Assembly (NCBI RefSeq): GCF_004342625.1
Contig: NZ_SMAH01000003.1
Coordinates: forward strand, 1 to 64,000
From: Tepidimonas ignava
Lineage (GTDB): Bacteria > Pseudomonadota > Gammaproteobacteria > Burkholderiales > Burkholderiaceae_C
Reading direction: 5' to 3'
Length of the DNA: 64,000 nucleotides
The notes beneath the pieces were generated by a model. The model had not been told where the DNA came from and searched no databases. It worked only from the letters and a program-made list of their open reading frames with translations. The translations under genes were made by a program, and so were the position numbers. This document shows positions 36,150-45,655 of this stretch, in pieces (positions within the stretch are counted from its first letter, which is position 1; every line of letters begins with the position of its first letter).

Positions 36150-36733
36150 TCGTTGGTGAAGCACTTTGGGTTTCCACCGGCGTGGTGGCGCTGGCGGAGA
36201 TGGGCGACAAAACGCAACTGCTGGCGCTGCTGCTGGCGGCGCGGTTTCGGCGTCCCTGGCCGATTGTGGCGGGCATCGTCGCGGCCACCGTGGTCAACCA
36301 CGCGCTGGCCGGGGCCGTCGGGGCGTGGCTGGCCTCGGCGGTCAGCCCCGCGGTGCTGCGTTGGGGATTGGGGCTGTCGTTCTTGGCCATGGCGGGCTGG
36401 ATGTTGATCCCCGACAAGGTGGACGAGGACGAGGTGCGCATCCCCCCGCGCTGGGGCGTCTTTGGTGCGACGCTGGTGGCGTTTTTTCTGGCCGAAATGG
36501 CTGACAAGACGCAAATCGCCACCGTGGCGCTCACCATCCACTACGCCGCACCGGTGCTGGTGGTGGTGGGCACGACGCTGGGCATGCTGCTGGCCGACGT
36601 GCCGGCCGTGTTCGTGGGTGACCGGCTGGCGCGGCGGGTTCCCATGAAGGTGGTGCACGCCATCGCCGCGGCCGTGTTTGCCGCGCTGGGCGTGGTGACA
36701 TTGCTGGGCGTTGGCGAGCGCCTGGACTTTTGA
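36146..36733 (+). CDS. GDT1/TMEM165 (UPF0016) cation exporter
   Basis: A 195-residue membrane protein with six predicted helices in two inverted halves. Each half carries the signature E-x-G/A-D-K-T-Q (AEMGDKTQ near residue 18, AEMADKTQ near residue 115). Bacterial members such as MneA export Mn2+; Ca2+ or H+ exchange is known in eukaryotic members. Start: GTG at 36146 overlapping the jetD stop, backed by AGGAGG at 36133-36138. The coupling to a Wadjet operon is unusual, and whether it serves the metal-dependent JetD nuclease is speculation. Confidence 0.92.
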   Translation: MIVGEALWVSTGVVALAEMGDKTQLLALLLAARFRRPWPIVAGIVAATVVNHALAGAVGAWLASAVSPAVLRWGLGLSFLAMAGWMLIPDKVDEDEVRIPPRWGVFGATLVAFFLAEMADKTQIATVALTIHYAAPVLVVVGTTLGMLLADVPAVFVGDRLARRVPMKVVHAIAAAVFAALGVVTLLGVGERLDF

Positions 36734-36833
36734 CAGGGCGCGCACGCTGGGCCACAATCGCATACATTCGTGCATGCTTATGCAGCAGCGCGGCATGAGC
36801 ACACCGCAGCGGCTGTCCCATCCGGAGACCCTC

Positions 36834-37859
36834 ATGCAGCAACCCTCTCTTACCCGCCGACACTGGCTGCGCACCGTCGCGGGCGCTTCCGCCGGGGTGG
36901 CCACGCTGGCGGCGGTGCCCGAAGTGCGGCTGTTCGCGCAACAGTTGCAGGATTTCATCGAAGGCCCACCGGTGCCCGACGTCAAGCCCGAGCGCCTCAG
37001 CCCCCACGTGTGGATGATCTACGCCCGCGACGGCTTCCCCACGCCGGACAACCGCGGCGTCATGGCCAACGTGGTGTTTGTCGTCACCTCGGTCGGCGTG
37101 GTGGTGCTGGACTCGGGCTGCTCGCTGCAGCACGGCCAGATGGCCATCCGCATGATCCGCACCGTCACCGACAAGCCGGTGGTGGCGATTTTCAACAGCC
37201 ACTACCACGGTGACCACTGGCTGGGCAACCACGCCTTCGTGGAGGCCTTCGGGGCGCAGCTGCCCATTTACGCCCTGCCGCACACGATCGAGCAAATTCG
37301 CGGCGCGGAGGGCAACCTGTGGCGCAGCCTGATGGAGCGCTGGACCAACCAGGCAACGATGGGCACCAAGGTGGTGCCCCCCAACCAGGCCACCGAGCAC
37401 GGGCGCACCTACCGCTTTGGCGACGTGACGCTGCGCATGCACCACTACGGCCGCGCACACACGCCGTCGGACCTGTGCATCGAAGTGGTCGAGGATCGCT
37501 TCACCTACGTGGGCGACATCGCGATGGAAAACCGCATCGCCAACATCGACGACGGCTCCTACCCGGGCACCTTCAAGTACTACGAGGCGCTGCAGCGGTC
37601 CGCCGGTGAGCAACTGTGGTGGCCCGGCCACGGCCGCGGCAGCAAGACGCTGCTCAACGACTACGGCACCTTCCTGCGCGGCATCTGGGAGCCCTGCGTG
37701 CAGGCGGTCAAAGACGGCGTGCCGCTGGAAAGGGCCAAGGAGCTGGTGCTCAAAGACCCGCGCGTGCAGACACGCGCCAAGAACATGGCCGGGTTCGAGT
37801 CCAACATCGGCAAGTACACGAGCCTGGCATACCTCGAAGCGGAAAAAGAGCTGTTCTGA
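36834..37859 (+). CDS. Exported metallo-beta-lactamase-fold hydrolase (SoxH-like)
   Basis: A 341-residue protein with a twin-arginine signal (LTRRHWLRTVAGASAG). A metallo-beta-lactamase domain has the zinc motif H123-Y-H125-G-D127-H128 and WWPGHGRGS near the C-terminal part of the active site. The ATG at 36834 is chosen for its upstream CGGAGA and because it puts the Tat motif at residues 7-13; earlier ATGs at 36774 and 36795 are in frame. Homologues annotated SoxH or quinoprotein-relay hydrolase share this layout. The substrate is unknown. Confidence 0.85.
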   Translation: MQQPSLTRRHWLRTVAGASAGVATLAAVPEVRLFAQQLQDFIEGPPVPDVKPERLSPHVWMIYARDGFPTPDNRGVMANVVFVVTSVGVVVLDSGCSLQHGQMAIRMIRTVTDKPVVAIFNSHYHGDHWLGNHAFVEAFGAQLPIYALPHTIEQIRGAEGNLWRSLMERWTNQATMGTKVVPPNQATEHGRTYRFGDVTLRMHHYGRAHTPSDLCIEVVEDRFTYVGDIAMENRIANIDDGSYPGTFKYYEALQRSAGEQLWWPGHGRGSKTLLNDYGTFLRGIWEPCVQAVKDGVPLERAKELVLKDPRVQTRAKNMAGFESNIGKYTSLAYLEAEKELF

Positions 37860-37975: not shown

Positions 37976-38698
37976 ATGGGCACTTTGGGCGAAAGCGTGC
38001 GCCTGGCGTTCGGGCTGCTGCTGAGCGGCGATGCCGTGCTGTGGCACACCGTTGCGCGTTCGCTGCTGGTCAGCGGACTGGCTTGTGCCTTCGCCTGTGT
38101 GGTAGGCCTGCCGCTGAGTGCGTGGCTGGCGTTGGCGCGCTTTGCCGGCCGTGGCGCGGTGGTGACCGTGCTCAACGCGTTGCTGGCGGTGCCTTCGGTG
38201 TTGGTGGGGCTGCTGGTGTACCTGCTGCTGTCGCGCTCGGGCCCGCTGGGGCACCTGGGGTGGCTGTTCTCGCTGCACGCCATGGTGTTGGCGCAGGCCC
38301 TGCTCGTGCTGCCGCTGGTGGCAGCGCTGACGCGCCAGCTGATCGAGGACGCGCACGCGCGCGGCGGCGAGCAGCTGCAGTCGCTGGGTGCGGGGCGGGC
38401 GCTGCGCGCCCTGCTGCTAGCCTGGGACGAGCGCCACGCGCTGCTGACGGTACTGATCACGGTTTTTGGGCGCGCCATTTCCGAAGTGGGCACGGTCATG
38501 ATCGTGGGCGGCAACATCGAGGGCTATACCCGCGTGATGACGACCGCCATCGCGCTGGAAACCAGCAAGGGCGATCTGCCGCTGGCGCTGGCTCTGGGTC
38601 TGGTCTTGCTGCTGGTGGTGTGGGCGTTGCATGCGTTGGTGGCCGTGCTGCGCAGGCTCGGCCAGCGCGGCACGGCAGCCGTGGAGACGGCGGCATGA
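37976..38698 (+). CDS. tupB: TupB, tungstate ABC permease
   Basis: A 240-residue inner-membrane permease with five or six helices. Its cytoplasmic coupling loop EDAHARGGEQLQSLGAGRALRALLLA has the EAA-like form of tungstate and molybdate permeases, and RAISEVGTVMIVGGNIEGYTRVMTT is characteristic of TupB. The tupC start overlaps its stop (ATGA). Tungstate rather than molybdate specificity is supported by the TupA partner and by the nearby tungsten enzyme genes. Confidence 0.92.
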   Translation: MGTLGESVRLAFGLLLSGDAVLWHTVARSLLVSGLACAFACVVGLPLSAWLALARFAGRGAVVTVLNALLAVPSVLVGLLVYLLLSRSGPLGHLGWLFSLHAMVLAQALLVLPLVAALTRQLIEDAHARGGEQLQSLGAGRALRALLLAWDERHALLTVLITVFGRAISEVGTVMIVGGNIEGYTRVMTTAIALETSKGDLPLALALGLVLLLVVWALHALVAVLRRLGQRGTAAVETAA

Positions 38699-39420
38699 GT
38701 GCGACGCCGGTGTTCGAGCTGCAGGCGGCGGCCGTGCGCCTGGGCGCGGTGCAGGCGCTGCATGCCCTGGATCTGCGCATTCACGCGGGCGAGGCGGTGG
38801 CTCTGGTGGGTGCCAACGGCAGCGGCAAGAGCACGCTGCTGCGGCTGCTGCATGGTCTGCAGCCGCCCAGCAGCGGGCGTGTGAGCAGCGTGCCGCTGCG
38901 CGCGCAGGCCATGCTGTTTCAACGGCCCTATCTGCTGCGCACCAGCGCGCTGCGCAATGTGGCGCTGGCGCTGTGGCTGCGCGGCGCGCGCTGGACCGAC
39001 GCCAAGGTGCAGGCCATGCGCGCGCTGCAGCGGGTGGGGCTGGAGGGCCAGGCCAGCCGTGCGGCGCGCACGCTCTCGGGTGGCCAGCAGCAGCGCCTGG
39101 CGCTGGCGCGTGCCTGGGCCTTGCAGCCGCAGGTGCTGTTGCTGGACGAGCCCACGGCCAGCCTGGATCCGCACGCCAAGCGCGAGGTGGAGGCGCTGAT
39201 CGCGCAGTTCATGCAGGGCCGCACGGCAGCGGGCGCGCCGCTGACGCTGGTCTTTGCCAGCCACAACCTGGGCCAGGTCAAGCGCCTGGCCAGTCGCGTG
39301 CTGTATCTGGAGCGCGGGCGGCTGTTGGCCGATTTGCCGGTGCGCGAATTCTTCGACCACGAACGGCTGCAGGTGGTATCGCCCGAAGGGGCGCTTTTCG
39401 TTAAAGGAGAACTGATATGA
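38695..39420 (+). CDS. tupC: TupC, tungstate ABC ATPase
   Basis: A 241-residue ABC ATPase that powers tungstate import through TupB. Walker A GANGSGKST, Q-loop FQRPYLLR, signature LSGGQQQRLALARAW, Walker B VLLLDEPTASLD and the switch His in FASHNLGQVKRLA are all intact. The start at 38695 overlaps tupB by 4 nt, and the stop overlaps tupA by 4 nt, so all three subunits are translationally linked. Confidence 0.94.
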   Translation: MSATPVFELQAAAVRLGAVQALHALDLRIHAGEAVALVGANGSGKSTLLRLLHGLQPPSSGRVSSVPLRAQAMLFQRPYLLRTSALRNVALALWLRGARWTDAKVQAMRALQRVGLEGQASRAARTLSGGQQQRLALARAWALQPQVLLLDEPTASLDPHAKREVEALIAQFMQGRTAAGAPLTLVFASHNLGQVKRLASRVLYLERGRLLADLPVREFFDHERLQVVSPEGALFVKGELI

Positions 39421-40253
39421 GCGGCTCGAAAAAGAGAATCCAAAAGCTGTGGCGCTGGGTCGCAGCCTGGGGCCTGGGGCTGGGCCTGCTGACGGCTGCG
39501 GCAGCGCAAAGCATCGTCGTGGCTTCGACGACCTCCACCGAGCAATCGGGTTTGTTCGCGCACCTGCTGCCGCGCTTCACACAGCACAGTGGCATCGCGG
39601 TCAAGGTCGTGGCCCTGGGCACGGGGCAGGCGCTGGACATGGCCCGGCGCGGCGATGCGGATGTGGTCTTCGTGCATGACCAGCCGGCCGAGGAGAAGTT
39701 TGTGGCCGAAGGTTGGGGTCTGAAGCGCCTGCCGGTGATGTACAACGACTTCGTTCTGATCGGCCCCAAGGCGGACCCGCTAGGGGTCCGTGGCCATGAC
39801 ATCGTGGCGGCGCTGAAGAAGATCAGCGCGGCGGGTGCGCCGTTCATTTCGCGTGGCGACAAAAGCGGCACGCATGCGGCCGAGCTGCGGTATTGGACGC
39901 TGGCTGGTGTAGAGGACAAGGGCGCTGGGTACAGGGCCTGTGGCTGCGGCATGGGGCCGGCCCTCAATATCGCTGCCAGCAGTGGTGCCTACGTGCTGGC
40001 CGACCGCGGCACCTGGCTGAACTTCAAGAACCGCGCCGACCTGACCATCTTGGTCGAAGGCGACCAGCGCCTGTTCAACCAGTACGGCGTCATCGTGGTC
40101 AACCCGGCGCGCCACCCCCACGTCAACGTGCGCGATGCCCAGCGCTTTGCCGACTGGCTCGTCTCGCCCCAGGGGCAGCAAGCGATCGCCGACTATCAAA
40201 TCGCCGGCCAGCCGGTATTTTTCCCGAACGCAGCCCAGCAGGCGAGCAAATGA
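39417..40253 (+). CDS. tupA: TupA, tungstate-binding periplasmic protein
   Basis: A 278-residue periplasmic binding protein with an N-terminal signal peptide (about residues 1-30, GLGLGLLTAAAAQS). The ligand-binding STTSTEQSGL near the mature N-terminus is the TupA hallmark. ALGTGQALDMARRGDADVVFVHD and SRGDKSGTHAAELRYW are further family segments. A CGCGMG loop near residue 175 is notable. TupA proteins bind tungstate very tightly and prefer it to molybdate. The gene closes the tupBCA operon and lies about 1.5 kb from the aor genes. Confidence 0.94.
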   Translation: MSGSKKRIQKLWRWVAAWGLGLGLLTAAAAQSIVVASTTSTEQSGLFAHLLPRFTQHSGIAVKVVALGTGQALDMARRGDADVVFVHDQPAEEKFVAEGWGLKRLPVMYNDFVLIGPKADPLGVRGHDIVAALKKISAAGAPFISRGDKSGTHAAELRYWTLAGVEDKGAGYRACGCGMGPALNIAASSGAYVLADRGTWLNFKNRADLTILVEGDQRLFNQYGVIVVNPARHPHVNVRDAQRFADWLVSPQGQQAIADYQIAGQPVFFPNAAQQASK

Positions 40254-40428: not shown

Positions 40429-41562
40429 TCAGGCCGCGGTGTCGGGCTCATCGCGGCGCTGGGCCAGCCGGCGATAGACGGTGGCGCGGCTGATGCCCAG
40501 ACGCCGCGCCGCTTCGGCCACGTTGCCTCCGGCTTCGGCGACGGCCTGACGGATCAGGGCCGCCTCGCGGCTGCGCAGCGGCACCGCCGCCGCGCCAACG
40601 GCCGCGCCAGCGTCGGCGCCACCGGTTTGCGCCCACACCAGCACCCGCAGGCCGCCCCAGGTCGGCACCTCCAGCGGCGGGCGCTGGCGCCGTGCAGCGT
40701 CGAACAGCATCGCCACCGGCAGCGCCAGCACCTCGCTGGCGTGCGGCCACGGCGCGCCGATGTCCAGCATGTGGGCCGCAGTTCGGTTGGCCGCCACGAT
40801 CATGCCCTCACCGTCCAGCGCCAGCAGCCCGTCGTCATCGTCGCCGGGCAGGTGGCCGGGCCACGTCAGCCGCAGGCGCAGCGTGTGCGACTGGGCCAGC
40901 ACCAACGCGTTTTCGATACGGCGCGCCGTCACCGCCACCAGGTGCTTCAGCGCCCGACGCTCGGGCGCGAGCACCCCGGTCAAATCCAGCATCCCCAGGC
41001 AAGCGCCGTCCGGCCCCCACAGCGGCGCGCCCGCGCACGAGTACACCGCGGTGTCTTCAAAAAAATGCTCGCCGCGGTGCAGCCACACCGGCGTAAGTTC
41101 GGCCAACGCAGCGCCGATGGCGGTGGTGCCCACGGTGCGCTCCGACAGGTCCACCCCGACGCGGGCGATCGCGTGCACGTGCACGTTGTGGTCATCGACC
41201 GGCCCATGCACGTCGATGACGACGCCGTCGGCGTTGGTCAGCAGCGCGAAGTAGCCGGTGTCGTGCATCGCCCGGCCCAGCGTTTGTTCGATCACCGGGG
41301 CCGCCACCCGACGCAGCTCGGCGCTGGCCTGCAGCGCCCGCCGTTGCGCCGCGGCGCTGACGGCGTCGAACGTGATGCGCTCGCGCGGCGAGCGCCCCCA
41401 CGCCAGGCAGCGCTGCCACGACGCCACGATCCACGGCTCCACGGCCGCGCTGGCCGGCGCTGGCCCCTCGTGCAGCAACCACCGCCGGCGCGCCTGCTCG
41501 ATGGCGCGCAAGCGCTCGCCCGCGGCGGCGGGGGCCACACGGTGCTCGACGCCTTGCGCCAT
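40429..41562 (-). CDS. GAF-PAS-Fis regulator lacking AAA+ domain
   Basis: A 377-residue regulator related to AcoR/sigma-54 activators. It has an N-terminal GAF-type sensor (about residues 55-205), a short PAS-like segment (LLALDGEGMIVAANRTAAHML) and a C-terminal Fis-type helix-turn-helix (GGNVAEAARRLGISRATVYRRL). The AAA+ sigma-54-interaction domain, with its GAFTGA loop and Walker motifs, is entirely missing, so it cannot act as a sigma-54 activator. The start is ATG at 41562 with AGGAG upstream; longer in-frame extensions run through the intergenic region. It is divergent from aorABC and is the likely regulator of that operon. Confidence 0.88.
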   Translation of the reverse strand: MAQGVEHRVAPAAAGERLRAIEQARRRWLLHEGPAPASAAVEPWIVASWQRCLAWGRSPRERITFDAVSAAAQRRALQASAELRRVAAPVIEQTLGRAMHDTGYFALLTNADGVVIDVHGPVDDHNVHVHAIARVGVDLSERTVGTTAIGAALAELTPVWLHRGEHFFEDTAVYSCAGAPLWGPDGACLGMLDLTGVLAPERRALKHLVAVTARRIENALVLAQSHTLRLRLTWPGHLPGDDDDGLLALDGEGMIVAANRTAAHMLDIGAPWPHASEVLALPVAMLFDAARRQRPPLEVPTWGGLRVLVWAQTGGADAGAAVGAAAVPLRSREAALIRQAVAEAGGNVAEAARRLGISRATVYRRLAQRRDEPDTAA

Positions 41563-41730
41563 GGTGCGGTTGTCTCCTGGTGCGGCCGCGAGCCGGCCAC
41601 GGTGTCGCATTTTGAGAATTTCGCACCGCCCTGGGGTAAACCCTAGGTGGTGCGGGGTTTTGTGCTGCCAAGAATAGCGCAAAACCCACACGCGGGTGGG
41701 GATGCCCCGCGCACCACCAGGAGACACACC
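41563..41730. promoter_or_regulatory. Dyad-rich region between regulator and aorA
   Basis: Two large inverted repeats lie side by side. The first has outer arms CGCACCGCC (41622-41630) and GGTGGTGCG (41646-41654), one mismatch, around a second near-palindrome CCTGGGGTA/AACCCTAGG (41630-41647). The other has arms GGGTTTTGTGCT (41655-41666) and AGCGCAAAACCC (41676-41687), 11 of 12 pairing, 9-bp spacer. They fit binding by dimeric regulators and possibly the divergent GAF-Fis protein. AGGAGA at 41719-41724 is the aorA ribosome-binding site. Confidence 0.6.
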
Positions 41731-42213
41731 ATGCAGAAGATGCTGCACATCGACCCGGCCAAGTGCACCGGCTGCCTCTCGTGCGAGATGGCGTGCTCGT
41801 ACGAAAACTATGGCGTCTTTGCCACCGCCAAGTCCCGCATCAAGGTGTTTGACTTCCACCACACCGGCCGCAAGGTGCCCTACACCTGCACCCAGTGCGA
41901 CGAAGCCTGGTGCTTGCACGCCTGCCCGGTGGAGGCCATCACGGTGGACAAGGTCACCGGCGCCAAGGTGGTCAGCGAATCGACCTGCGTGGGCTGCAAG
42001 GTGTGCACGATCGCCTGCCCCTTTGGCACGATCAACTACGTGGCCGAAACCGGCAAGGTGCAAAAGTGCGACCTGTGCGGCGGCCAGCCCGCGTGCGCCG
42101 AGGCCTGCCCCACCGGCGCCATCACCTTCATCGACGCCAATTGGACCGGCCTGGGCAAGATGCAGCAGTGGGCCGACAAGCTCGGCAACCAGCCCGCCGC
42201 CGCCACGGCGTGA
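41731..42213 (+). CDS. aorA: AorA, polyferredoxin subunit of tungsten AOR
   Basis: A 160-residue ferredoxin-type subunit with sixteen cysteines in four groups: CTGCLSCEMAC, CTQCDEAWCLHAC, CVGCKVCTIAC and CDLCGGQPACAEAC. This is enough for four [4Fe-4S] clusters. In the Aromatoleum enzyme AorA carries electrons between the tungsten subunit AorB and the FAD subunit AorC. The start has AGGAGA 6 bp upstream. It heads the aor operon; aorB follows after 53 bp. Confidence 0.92.
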   Translation: MQKMLHIDPAKCTGCLSCEMACSYENYGVFATAKSRIKVFDFHHTGRKVPYTCTQCDEAWCLHACPVEAITVDKVTGAKVVSESTCVGCKVCTIACPFGTINYVAETGKVQKCDLCGGQPACAEACPTGAITFIDANWTGLGKMQQWADKLGNQPAAATA

Positions 42214-42266: not shown

Positions 42267-44114
42267 ATGGCCTGGGCCGGAAAACTTTTGCGTGTCAACC
42301 TCACCGCCGGCACCTGCACGCCGGAGCCGCTCAACATGACCTGGGCGCGCCAGTACCTCGGCTCGCGCGGGCTGGGCAGCAAATACCTGGTCGAAGAAGT
42401 CGACCCCAAGGTCGATCCGCTGTCGCCGGACAACAAAATCATCTGGGCCACGGGGCCGCTGACCGGCACGATGGCCTCCACCGGCGGGCGCTACACCGTC
42501 ATCACCAAGGGGCCGCTGACCGGCGCCATCGCCTGCTCCAACTCCGGCGGCTACTGGGGCGCGGAGCTCAAGGCGGCTGGGTGGGACATGATCATCTTCG
42601 AGGGCAAGTCGCCCACGCCGGTGTACCTGTACATTCAGGACGACGTGGCCGAGCTGCGTGACGCCTCGCACCTGTGGGGCAAGAGCGTGTGGGACACCGA
42701 GCACATCCTCAAGACCAGCCTGCAAGACCCGCTGCTGCGCATCTCCAGCATCGGGCGCGCCGGCGAAAACCAGGTGCTGTTCGCCTGCGTCGTCAACGAC
42801 CTGCACCGCGCCGCGGGGCGCTCGGGCGTGGGCGCGGTGGCCGGCAGCAAAAACCTCAAGGCCATCGCGGTGCGCGGCACCAAGGGCGTGGGCAACATCC
42901 GCGACCCGCAGGCCTTCATGCAGGCCACGCGCGCCGCCAAAAAGGTGCTGGCCGACAACGCCGTCACGGGTCAGGGCCTGCCCAAATACGGCACCCAGGT
43001 GCTGATGAACGTCATCAACGAAATCGGCGCGCTGCCCACACGCAACCACCGCGACGTGCAGTTCGAAGGCGCCAACGACATCTCGGCCGAGGCCATGCTC
43101 AAGCCACGCCCCACCGACGGCAAGCCGCACCTGGTCACCAACCAGGCCTGCTTTGGCTGCACGATCGCCTGCGGGCGCATCAGCAAAATCGACGAAACCC
43201 ACTTCAGCGTGCAAAACAAGCCTCAGTACTGGGGCGCCAGCGGCGGCCTGGAGTACGAAGCCGCCTGGGCGTTGGGGGCGGCCAACGGCGTCAACGACCT
43301 CGAGGCCCTGCAATACGCCAACCTCATCTGCAACGAGCACGGCATGGACCCCATCAGCTTCGGCGCCACGGTAGGCGCGGTCATGGAGCTGTACGAACTG
43401 GGGGTGCTGACCAAAGAGCAAATCGGCCTCGAAGCCCCGTTTGGCTCGGCGCGGGCGCTGTGCGAGCTGGCCGACATGACCGCCAACGGCATCGGCTTTG
43501 GCAAGGAAATCGCCCTGGGCTCCAAGCGGCTGTGCGCCAAATACGGCCACCCCGAGCTGTCAATGAGCGTCAAGGGCCAGGAATTCCCTGCCTACGACAG
43601 CCGCGGCATCCAAGGCATGGGGTTGGCCTACGCCACCAGCAACCGCGGCGCGTGCCACCTGCGCGGCTACACGGTGGCCTCGGAGGTGCTGGGCATCCCC
43701 GTCAAGACCGACCCACACAGCACCGAGGGCAAACCCGAGCTGGTCAAAGCGTTCCAGGACGCCACGGCAGCGTTCGACTCGGCCGGCATTTGCATCTTCA
43801 CCAGCTTTGCCTGGACGCTGGCCGACGTCGCCCCGCAGGTGGCCGCCGCCTGTGGCGAGGAGTTCACCGTGCAGGAGCTCGAGCGCATCGGCGAGCGCAT
43901 CTGGAACCTGGAGCGCGAGTTCAACAACCGCGCCGGCTTCACCGCCGCCGACGACACGCTGCCGCCACGGCTGCTCAACGAGCCGGCCAAGACCGGCCCG
44001 GCCAAGGGGTTGACCAACAAGCTGCCCGAGATGCTGCCCAAGTACTACGAAGTGCGCGGCTGGGACGCCCAAGGGCGGCCCACGGCGGAGACGAAAGCAC
44101 GTCTGGGCCTGTGA
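42267..44114 (+). CDS. aorB: AorB, tungsten aldehyde oxidoreductase
   Basis: A 615-residue catalytic subunit of the AOR family. It binds a bis-pyranopterin tungsten cofactor and one [4Fe-4S] cluster and oxidises aldehydes to acids. Cluster ligands are C295-x2-C298-x3-C302 plus C509 (GIC), matching the archaeal AOR spacing. The N-terminal AGKLLRVNLTAGTCTPEPL, RYTVITKGPLTGAIACSNSGGYWG, and the later KGQEFPAYDSRGIQGMGLAYATSNRGACH are family signatures. Close neighbours aorA, aorC and a MoaD-like gene show the Aromatoleum-type complex. GGAGA precedes the ATG. Confidence 0.96.
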   Translation: MAWAGKLLRVNLTAGTCTPEPLNMTWARQYLGSRGLGSKYLVEEVDPKVDPLSPDNKIIWATGPLTGTMASTGGRYTVITKGPLTGAIACSNSGGYWGAELKAAGWDMIIFEGKSPTPVYLYIQDDVAELRDASHLWGKSVWDTEHILKTSLQDPLLRISSIGRAGENQVLFACVVNDLHRAAGRSGVGAVAGSKNLKAIAVRGTKGVGNIRDPQAFMQATRAAKKVLADNAVTGQGLPKYGTQVLMNVINEIGALPTRNHRDVQFEGANDISAEAMLKPRPTDGKPHLVTNQACFGCTIACGRISKIDETHFSVQNKPQYWGASGGLEYEAAWALGAANGVNDLEALQYANLICNEHGMDPISFGATVGAVMELYELGVLTKEQIGLEAPFGSARALCELADMTANGIGFGKEIALGSKRLCAKYGHPELSMSVKGQEFPAYDSRGIQGMGLAYATSNRGACHLRGYTVASEVLGIPVKTDPHSTEGKPELVKAFQDATAAFDSAGICIFTSFAWTLADVAPQVAAACGEEFTVQELERIGERIWNLEREFNNRAGFTAADDTLPPRLLNEPAKTGPAKGLTNKLPEMLPKYYEVRGWDAQGRPTAETKARLGL

Positions 44115-44116
44115 CC

Positions 44117-45394
44117 ATGCGGCACCACGTCATCCTGGGCGCAGGCCCGGCAGGCGTCATCGCGGCCGAAACCATCCGCAAGCACGCGCCGCACGACCGC
44201 GTCACGCTGGTGGGCGACGAGCCCGAGCCGCCCTACTCGCGCATGGCCATCCCCTACCTGCTGGTGGGCAACATCGACGAGCGCGGCACCTACCTGCGCA
44301 AGCACCCTGGGCATTACGCGGCGCTGGGCATCGACTGCGTGGCGGGCCGCGCCACGGCGGTGGACACCCAAGCGTGCCGCGTCACGCTGCACGACGGCCG
44401 CACGCTGGAGTACGACCGGCTGCTGCTGGCCACCGGCTCGCGCCCCGTCAAGCCTCCCATCCCCGGCGTCACGCTGCCGGGTGTGCACCACTGCTGGACG
44501 CTGGCCGACGCGCGCGCCATCCAGGCACTGGCCAAGCCTGGTGCGCGCGTGCTGCAACTGGGCGCGGGCTTCATCGGCTGCATCATCATGGAAGCGCTCA
44601 AGCAGCGGGGTGTGCAGCTGACGGTGGTGGAAATGGGCGATCGCATGGTGCCGCGCATGATGGGGCCGACCGCCGGCGGCATGATCCGGCACTGGTGCGA
44701 ACGCCAAGGCGTGCGCGTGCTCACCCAAACGCGCATCGAAGCCATCGAGCGGGCCGCGCCGCTGCGCGTGCGTCTGTCCGACGGCCAGCACGTCGAGGCC
44801 GACCTTGTCATCATCGCCGCCGGTGTCAAGCCGGCGATCGAGTTCCTGCAAGCCAGCGACATCCGCTGCCTGCAAGGTGTGCTCACCGACGAGCACATGC
44901 AAACCAACGTCCCCGGCGTGTACGCCGCCGGCGACTGCGCCGAAGCCTTCGACAAGGTCAGCGGCACCACCATCGTCAGCGCCATCCAACCCAACGCCGC
45001 CGAGCAAGCGCGCGTGGCCGCGCTCAACATGGTGGGGCTGCGCGCCGAGCTGCGCGGCGTCACCCAAATCAACGTGCTCGACACCCTGGGACTGATCTCG
45101 ACCAGCTTCGGCCACTGGCAGGGTGTGCCGGGTGGCGAGCGGGCCGAAGTGGTGGACGAGGTCCACCACAAGGTGGTGAGCCTGGCCTTTCACGGCGACC
45201 GGGTGGTGGGCTGCAACACGGTGGGCTGGACCGACCACGTGGGTGCCCTGCGCGGTTTGGTCGAAGGCCAAGTGCGGCTGGGGGCCTGGAAAGAGGCGCT
45301 GCTGCGCGACCCCACGCAGTTCGCGGCGGCGTACCTGGCCTGCGCGCAAAGCCAGCACCGCTGGAGCGGCGCGCTCGATGGCGGGCGGCGCTAG
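44117..45394 (+). CDS. aorC: AorC, FAD/NAD(H)-binding subunit
   Basis: A 425-residue flavoprotein of the pyridine-nucleotide-disulfide reductase fold without a redox-active disulfide. The FAD motif is HHVILGAGPAGVIAAETIRK; an NAD motif VLQLGAGFIGCIIMEALKQR lies near residue 145; and TNVPGVYAAGDCAEAF is the second FAD-binding segment. In Aromatoleum this subunit couples the tungsten enzyme to NAD+. It starts 2 bp after aorB. Confidence 0.92.
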   Translation: MRHHVILGAGPAGVIAAETIRKHAPHDRVTLVGDEPEPPYSRMAIPYLLVGNIDERGTYLRKHPGHYAALGIDCVAGRATAVDTQACRVTLHDGRTLEYDRLLLATGSRPVKPPIPGVTLPGVHHCWTLADARAIQALAKPGARVLQLGAGFIGCIIMEALKQRGVQLTVVEMGDRMVPRMMGPTAGGMIRHWCERQGVRVLTQTRIEAIERAAPLRVRLSDGQHVEADLVIIAAGVKPAIEFLQASDIRCLQGVLTDEHMQTNVPGVYAAGDCAEAFDKVSGTTIVSAIQPNAAEQARVAALNMVGLRAELRGVTQINVLDTLGLISTSFGHWQGVPGGERAEVVDEVHHKVVSLAFHGDRVVGCNTVGWTDHVGALRGLVEGQVRLGAWKEALLRDPTQFAAAYLACAQSQHRWSGALDGGRR

Positions 45395-45403
45395 CATCGC
45401 AGC

Positions 45404-45655
45404 ATGAACGTCACCCTCAAGCTGTTCGCAACGCTCAGCGACCATCTACCGGCCGGCGCCCAGGGCAATCAAATCGTGTTGCCTGTGGCGCCGGGCACCA
45501 CGGTGCAGCAGCTCATCGAGCGGCTGCACCTGCCGCCCAAGCTCGTGCACCTGGTGCTGGTCAACGGCGTGTACATCCCGCCCGAGGCGCGCGCCGCCCG
45601 CGCGCTGACCGACGGCGACACCTTGGCCATCTGGCCGCCGATCGCGGGCGGATGA
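45404..45655 (+). CDS. aorD: MoaD/ThiS-like sulfur carrier (AorD)
   Basis: An 83-residue ubiquitin-like protein ending in the Gly-Gly needed for thiocarboxylate formation (WPPIAGG). The LVLVNGVYIPP and LTDGDTLAIWPPIAGG segments are typical of MoaD-like proteins encoded with tungsten AORs. It probably supplies sulfur for the tungstopterin dithiolene. It lies 9 bp after aorC. A TAGCAT at 45392-45397, overlapping the aorC stop, resembles a -10 placed as in other short-leader genes of this window. Confidence 0.88.
   Translation: MNVTLKLFATLSDHLPAGAQGNQIVLPVAPGTTVQQLIERLHLPPKLVHLVLVNGVYIPPEARAARALTDGDTLAIWPPIAGG

Follow-up and report, generated by a model that had tools for sequence, protein, structure and literature searches.

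AcoR, a member of the AcoR/DhaR group of GAF regulators, which are sigma-54 enhancer-binding proteins, recognises a palindrome of the shape TGTnnCA-n3-TGnnACA. For the tungsten aldehyde oxidoreductases, the aor operon of Aromatoleum aromaticum has been reported to consist of aorABCDE (PMC6365974), the same gene set as is found here, and the available part of that paper describes neither a regulator nor a promoter for it. The window, by which we mean the whole analysed stretch of 64,000 nucleotides from Tepidimonas ignava, contains such an operon together with a gene for a GAF-Fis transcription regulator, the two diverging from an intergenic region of 168 bp, with the regulator on the minus strand and aorABCDE on the plus strand (Table 1). 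The closest named aorA is that of T. aquatica, at 98% identity, followed by those of T. thermarum, T. alkaliphilus and T. fonticaldi. It is worth adding that a metallo-beta-lactamase-fold protein is encoded at 36711-37859, upstream of the tungstate-type transporter.

Table 1. Coordinates in the window of the genes, repeats and predicted promoter elements around the aor control region.
Feature	Position	Strand	Remarks
Tungstate-type ABC transporter genes	37976-40253	+	Beyond the regulator gene, seen from aor
Transporter permease	37976-38698	+	A general ABC permease model fits best, then TupB, below its cut-off
Transporter ATPase	ends 39420	+	TupC-like by position
Transporter binding protein	39417-40253	+	TupA the sole NCBIfam match, at 220.6 bits (cut-off 400)
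GAF-Fis transcription regulator, 377 aa	40429-41562	-	Pfam GAF PF01590 at 108-220, HTH_8 PF02954 at 329-368
Site A, TGTCGCATTTTGAGAAT	41603-41619	+	Predicted operator of the divergent GAF-Fis protein, centred at about -71 with a start near 41682; absent from the original prediction
First inverted repeat	41622-41654		Site B with outer arms at 41622-41630 and 41646-41654; core alone conserved
Site B, CCTGGGGTAAACCCTAGG	41630-41647		Conserved palindrome, nested core of the first repeat, centred at about -43 from the predicted start
Second inverted repeat	41655-41687		Arms 41655-41666 and 41676-41687; -10 in the loop; not conserved
-10-like hexamer AAGAAT of the aor promoter	41670-41675	+	Weak; start predicted at about 41682
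aorA, ferredoxin-like iron-sulfur subunit of tungsten aldehyde oxidoreductase	41731-42213	+	4Fe-4S families
aorB, tungsten-binding large subunit (AFOR_N, AFOR_C)	42267-44114	+	PF02730, PF01314
aorC, FAD/NAD(P) reductase subunit	44117-45394	+	PF07992 (scan from 44141)
aorD, MoaD/ThiS-like protein	45404-45655	+	PF02597

The arrangement that best accounts for this region is probably an activator-dependent promoter of the sigma-70 type in three parts: a palindrome (A) for the GAF-Fis protein, a second palindrome (B) for another activator, and a weak -10. The aorA of the window served as query for homologue searches at the family and order levels. At the family level aorA was found in 86 of 299 genomes, and the upstream DNA of 83 was analysed, with three partial matches (G279, G244 and G112) left out; the promoter elements were first read by eye in these 83 regions and then quantified. 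Site A, with the consensus TGTYKCAnnnTGAGAAT (at least 12 of 14 positions), is present in 50 of the 83 regions, against 0.12% of shuffles. Site B has the consensus CCTAGGGTTnnCCCTAGG, and in 43 of the 50 loci the distance between the start of A and the best match to CTAGGGTTnnCCCTAG within 330 bp is 28, 29, 39, 40, 41 or 50 bp, a phased spacing found in 1.2% of shuffles. The best B lies elsewhere in the other seven (L007, L008, L026, L036, L042, L050 and L066), of which L007 and L008 are sister Tepidimonas with a degenerate B. In 39 of the 43 loci a CAACAAT-like heptamer follows, 37-38 bp on from the start of B. The columns between B and the heptamer carry at most 0.46 bit each in a set of 52 loci, made up of the 50 A-bearing loci and two from other families; B was picked in that set from among a few permitted offsets as the best match, so that its column counts are conditional. 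The loci share descent, so that counts over them are not independent. The search that gave the nearest named aorA yielded 80 loci, of which four (L273, L276, L277 and L281) were used, and A, B and the -10 can be read in all six aligned Tepidimonas genomes, including the window, B being degenerate in two.

B is a palindrome held rigidly about 42 bp upstream of the inferred start, next to a weak -10 and with no -35, which is the layout of a class II promoter. No consensus sigma-70 -35/-10 pair was found at the aor promoter, and the weak -10 and missing -35 imply that activators would be needed. A sigma-54 promoter was also considered, and was rejected for want of a -24/-12 element: the best score in the intergenic region is 8 of 12, no candidate with GG-N10-GC reaches 9, and only three of the 83 aor loci score 10 of 12 within 200 bp. 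The regulator itself points in the same direction. Its matches to the Fis-type HTH (PF02954, 45.1 bits, cut-off 22) and to GAF (PF01590, 26.1 bits, cut-off 22.4) are above threshold, and Pfam detects only GAF and HTH-type matches in it and no AAA+ domain; an AAA+ sigma-54 interaction domain with GAFTGA was not found, and the DhaR model gives 66.1 bits against a cut-off of 551. With neither an AAA+ domain nor a sigma-54 element detected, sigma-70 is to be preferred to sigma-54. We note separately that in many relatives (L012, L013, L063 and others) the -10 is followed by CCTATGCA-N6-TTCATAGG-like repeats or by CCTATGCA...CATAGG, both of which are absent in the window; the TGCA-N6-TGCA form seen in L040, L062 and L075 presumably resembles the operators of BoxR and BzdR.

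The original prediction for this region was of two adjacent large inverted repeats at 41622-41687, in the control region of aor, and on both points it holds: every arm is in place, and the block ends 43 bp ahead of the ATG of aorA. In the first repeat the outer arms CGCACCGCC and GGTGGTGCG are paired at 8 of 9 positions, and the nested arms CCTGGGGTA and AACCCTAGG at 7 of 9; in the second, GGGTTTTGTGCT and AGCGCAAAACCC are paired at 11 of 12. When A, B and the -10 are mapped onto the window, the first repeat is seen to be B with non-conserved flanks, and the second a repeat with the -10 in its loop. Rarity was judged from 2000 dinucleotide shuffles of the 168-bp region, with spacers of 3-20. 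By itself the first repeat is nothing unusual: 34% of shuffles contain arms of 9 bp with at most one mismatch, and 13% contain arms of 14 bp with at most three. Arms of 12 bp with no more than one mismatch are found in 1.2% of shuffles, and 22 of the 760 tiles into which the window was divided have them.

Both repeats had been read as operators for dimeric proteins, with a regulator that responds to tungsten or redox state suggested as one possibility at the second. The presence of both repeats in the sequence and the rarity of the 12-bp arm speak for this, as does a shorter version of the second repeat in T. aquatica (GGTTTTGAG/CGCAAAACC, 9 bp, 8 of 9 pairs). However, a repeat with 12-bp arms and no more than one mismatch is missing in all five other Tepidimonas: there is none in the 170 bp before aorA in T. 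fonticaldi, T. thermarum, T. alkaliphilus and L007, and in T. aquatica the second repeat has eroded on one side, with 4 of 12 positions changed in the left arm, none in the right, and 8 of 12 pairs left. The 9-bp repeat is likewise absent in three of those four regions, and T. alkaliphilus has one 9-bp repeat, elsewhere, over its own B. The two arms of the second repeat are thus neither conserved nor covarying in close relatives. For the first repeat, symmetric pairing about the axis of B exceeds that of slid controls at the outer three pairs of a 16-bp core (31, 25 and 34 of 52 loci). The inner GGG/CCC pairs do equally well when slid by one, so that the dyad of B rests on the outer three pairs. 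From 8 bp outward, which takes in the outer arms, pairing is at the control level over the 52 loci. In T. aquatica the outer arms are still paired at 8 of 9 positions, with a different mismatch, and B is a better dyad, CCTAGGGTAAACCCTAGG, paired at 8 of 9 positions where the window's copy is paired at 7. What survives of the operator proposal, and of the expectation that the arms would recur upstream of aorA in relatives, is the nested palindrome B, which at 16-18 bp is conserved and of operator type; the outer arms and the second repeat do not share in this, and that both large repeats are operators is very improbable. No evidence for a tungsten- or redox-responsive site was found at the second repeat, and a site there for a tungstate or Mo regulator was rejected as the repeat is not conserved. 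We propose instead that the second repeat is a species-level coincidence, or an embellishment around the -10.

A different use of the same symmetry would be secondary structure, as hairpins in the leader transcript of aor or of the opposite-strand regulator, or as extrusion in the DNA. Considered jointly, the two repeats do stand out: when 41620-41690 is folded as a single RNA strand, a pair of neighbouring hairpins forms at -45.1 kcal/mol (z -7.3, with none of 200 shuffles as stable), in a test that is post hoc because the block was picked for its repeats. Tiles of the window match this energy in 22 of 6393 cases, and a z of -7 was reached by no tile in a sample of 640 (20 shuffles per tile); the opposite strand folds at -34.6 kcal/mol. 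In T. aquatica the first hairpin is kept, with two changes that preserve pairing (GU to GC and GU to AU) and one that breaks it. These observations favour a structural role, but the counterpart in T. aquatica folds at only -28.8 kcal/mol (z -3.4), and in the other four Tepidimonas z lies between -1.4 and 0.4. In addition, the block is almost wholly upstream of the predicted start, and the aor-leader version requires a start further upstream. No Rfam match was found in 41300-41900 up to an E of 5, on which ground a riboswitch or structured leader was rejected, and at gathering thresholds Rfam finds only two tRNAs in the whole window. We regard secondary structure as the purpose of the repeats as improbable, although the double hairpin of the window and T. 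aquatica possibly has a local role at the species level. Since the repeats are eroded and the hairpins lose stability in sister species, the large repeats are treated here as species-level features, and B as the conserved core.

The GAF-Fis protein is more likely to bind the neighbouring palindrome A than the repeats. The main reason for assigning A to this protein is that recognition helix and site covary. The helix reads SRAT in all 22 A-type regulators for which it is complete in the fetched DNA, while the short regulator of L017 has GRNT and a site TGTTCCAnnnTGGGACA, and five long AcoR-like proteins near aor loci that lack A have SRNT, four of them with GAFTGA. A is absent from 33 of the 83 aorA loci, and some of these carry a related pattern, A', which is TGTnCCAnnnTGGnACA-like and lies 41-43 bp from B in L017, L040, L047, L055, L069, L075, L077 and L081, and 20-21 bp from B in L023, L027, L037, L059 and L067; the matches are 9 to 12 of 12, and 0.9% of shuffles reach 10. 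Two of the five neighbourhoods with SRNT proteins (L193 and L194, around the aor loci L068 and L070) have no A' site. A also goes together with the regulator gene. A homologue of the regulator is divergent beside aorA in 44 of the 83 loci, and A is found in 39 of these 44, against 11 of the 39 loci without one. The 39 regulators at A loci are at least 49% identical to that of the window, and the five at loci without A (L017, L055, L056, L057 and L068) about 31%. Among the 11 A loci with no divergent gene, L011 has just 310 bp upstream and L082 has a homologue on the same strand. In a survey of 300 genomes of the order, 26 proved to have aorA, and four of these belong to the same family as the window. 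Outside that family 21 upstream regions were read, with one more partial match set aside: both regions next to a divergent regulator gene have A, and the 19 that lack this gene do not. From this agreement we infer that A is the binding site of the divergent GAF-Fis protein.

The same layout is found in front of other genes. A joint search for A followed by CTAGGGT, allowing 25-43 bp between them, gave 31 matches in 29 of the 299 family genomes and none in the reversed control, many of the matches being aor loci already counted; the spacings are 39 (11 matches), 40 (12), 41 (6), 28 (1) and 29 (1). A narrower form of A, TGTYTCAnnnTGAGAAT, which misses the window's own copy, gave 32 matches in 27 of 200 genomes, again with none in the reversed control. 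Among the 30 narrow-A loci read, 28 precede aorA, the small subunit of a Mo-hydroxylase, a PQQ dehydrogenase or a metallo-beta-lactamase-fold protein (the exceptions being L353 and L378), and at a loose threshold (7 to 13 of 13) a phased B-like core accompanies 27, all but L353, L368 and L378. The Mo-hydroxylase large subunit of L199 has aerobic CO dehydrogenase and glyceraldehyde dehydrogenase as its best models and is below both cut-offs. The PQQ protein of L162 is above the cut-off of the methanol/ethanol family, and PQQ alcohol dehydrogenases with the A/B layout come from two genomes of one genus (G254 and G070). Of 28 chosen non-aor loci, 27 pass the site filter, the failure being L139, before a TonB-receptor-type gene, and by reading, a -10-like hexamer is at the same place, or within 2 bp of it, in 26 of the 27, L239 having none. 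Two regulators, one with a TOBE domain and ModE-like (L202:7938-8795) and one with HTH and PBP_like domains (L204:4272-5444), are encoded beside clusters of transporter and Mo-hydroxylase genes with an A+B promoter. A metallo-beta-lactamase-fold protein other than that of the window, L364:1639-2751, also has an A+B promoter.

One protein might serve both palindromes: two dimers of the GAF-Fis regulator would then sit on the same helical face, one at A and one at B, and no other protein would take part. The phasing of A and B, the B-like core beside nearly all of the narrow-A sites and the palindromic form of each site are all compatible with this. On the other hand, the CCTAGGG half-sites of B are unlike the TGTnnCA and TGAGAAT of A, B-like sites stay in place where A' replaces A (L017, L040, L055, L075 and L077, with 10 to 13 of 13), and B occurs without A elsewhere. 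We consider it unlikely that the GAF-Fis protein occupies both sites, and prefer a separate activator on B.

B without A was followed through the family genomes. Searched for alone as CTAGGGTTnnnCCTAG, B is found in 93 of the 299 genomes, with 124 strand matches against 28 in the reversed control (manual count). Reading of 83 non-aor B loci showed an A-like site 39-40 bp away in about 23 (manual count, at least 13 of 17 positions), and the others adjoin LysR, aldehyde dehydrogenase or unassigned genes. As B stands without A before genes as unrelated as these, it may be read by more than one protein. B-like palindromes without A are found beside a LysR gene in L094, L096, L099, L144, L155 and L171, the LysR assignment being confirmed in L096 and L144 and made by look in the others. 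Aldehyde dehydrogenase genes (PF00171) adjoin a B-like site, again without A, in L110 and L111, and in L110 the opposite flank of the site carries an AraC-type regulator. In L097, L117, L124, L142 and L146 an invariant CTAGGGTTTTCCCTAG is placed some 28 bp ahead of the earliest start codon that could be used; the protein that follows is GNAT-like by look, with no Pfam match at 1e-8 in L117.

In the genome of the window, B-like sites with at most three mismatches number 16 strand matches, including the aor site, against 8 in the control, and A-like sites with at most two mismatches number 8, also including the aor site, against 2. No related function was seen in the genes around three of the B-like and two of the A-like sites. 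A shared extra regulator was sought in 20 aor neighbourhoods (19 of them without A, each read in part) and in six of 20 further ones, and none stood out in this non-exhaustive reading. Nor could any of the nine LuxR-type proteins of the window's genome be tied to B. In its 6-n4-6 form B probably resembles the sites of NarL/FixJ-type regulators, such as StyR and TodT. Six spellings of B were sought in the open-access literature and led to one unrelated paper only. The CrbR motif was rejected as an identity for B, since the motif given in the available part of PMC5715377 differs from it.

The sequences themselves show the conservation, spacing and phasing of the elements, the association of A with the regulator gene and the covariation of helix and site; binding, activation, the start and the signal are predictions of the following mechanism, which these results suggest. 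The divergently encoded GAF-Fis regulator would bind A, some 70-80 bp upstream of the start, and a second, putatively dimeric activator would occupy B at about -42, beside RNA polymerase as in class II promoters. With A and B on the same face of the helix, GAF-Fis at A would help the second activator at B, or be helped by it, at the weak -10. The signal sensed by the GAF domain may be related to an aldehyde or alcohol, a suggestion prompted by the occurrence of one promoter layout before tungsten, molybdenum and PQQ oxidoreductases; it is a weak one, as one of the enzymes is CO-dehydrogenase-like. More broadly, and tentatively, it is quite possible that a single family-wide code of A, B and -10 in fixed helical phase has placed these tungsten, molybdenum and PQQ oxidoreductases under AAA+-less GAF-Fis proteins, which would no longer remodel sigma-54 polymerase and would cooperate with the B factor at sigma-70 promoters.

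A three-part promoter of this kind is not described in the available parts of PMC6365974, PMC13328260, PMC5715377 and PMC12997753, or in open-access listings. With this proposal the regulation of tungsten aldehyde oxidoreductase operons in bacteria has a model that can be tested, and we found none in the open-access literature, consulted mostly as listings. It links, through one promoter layout, enzymes that need different metals or cofactors, and it presents a GAF-Fis regulator that would have to act without an AAA+ motor. The protein that binds B becomes a concrete target for DNA-affinity capture.

The closest known relatives of the system, besides the aor operon of A. aromaticum, are of two kinds. 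The regulator resembles those of the AcoR/DhaR type in its GAF sensor, its C-terminal Fis HTH and its divergent orientation, and A is likewise palindromic and of the same general shape as the AcoR site. It differs from them in having no detected AAA+ domain and no sigma-54 promoter, in the right half-site TGAGAAT, and in the recognition helix, which is SRAT rather than SRNT. The promoter resembles the class II activator-dependent sigma-70 promoters, such as those of the StyR/TodT or CRP/FNR type, in that a palindrome is found at about -42, with a weak -10 and no -35.
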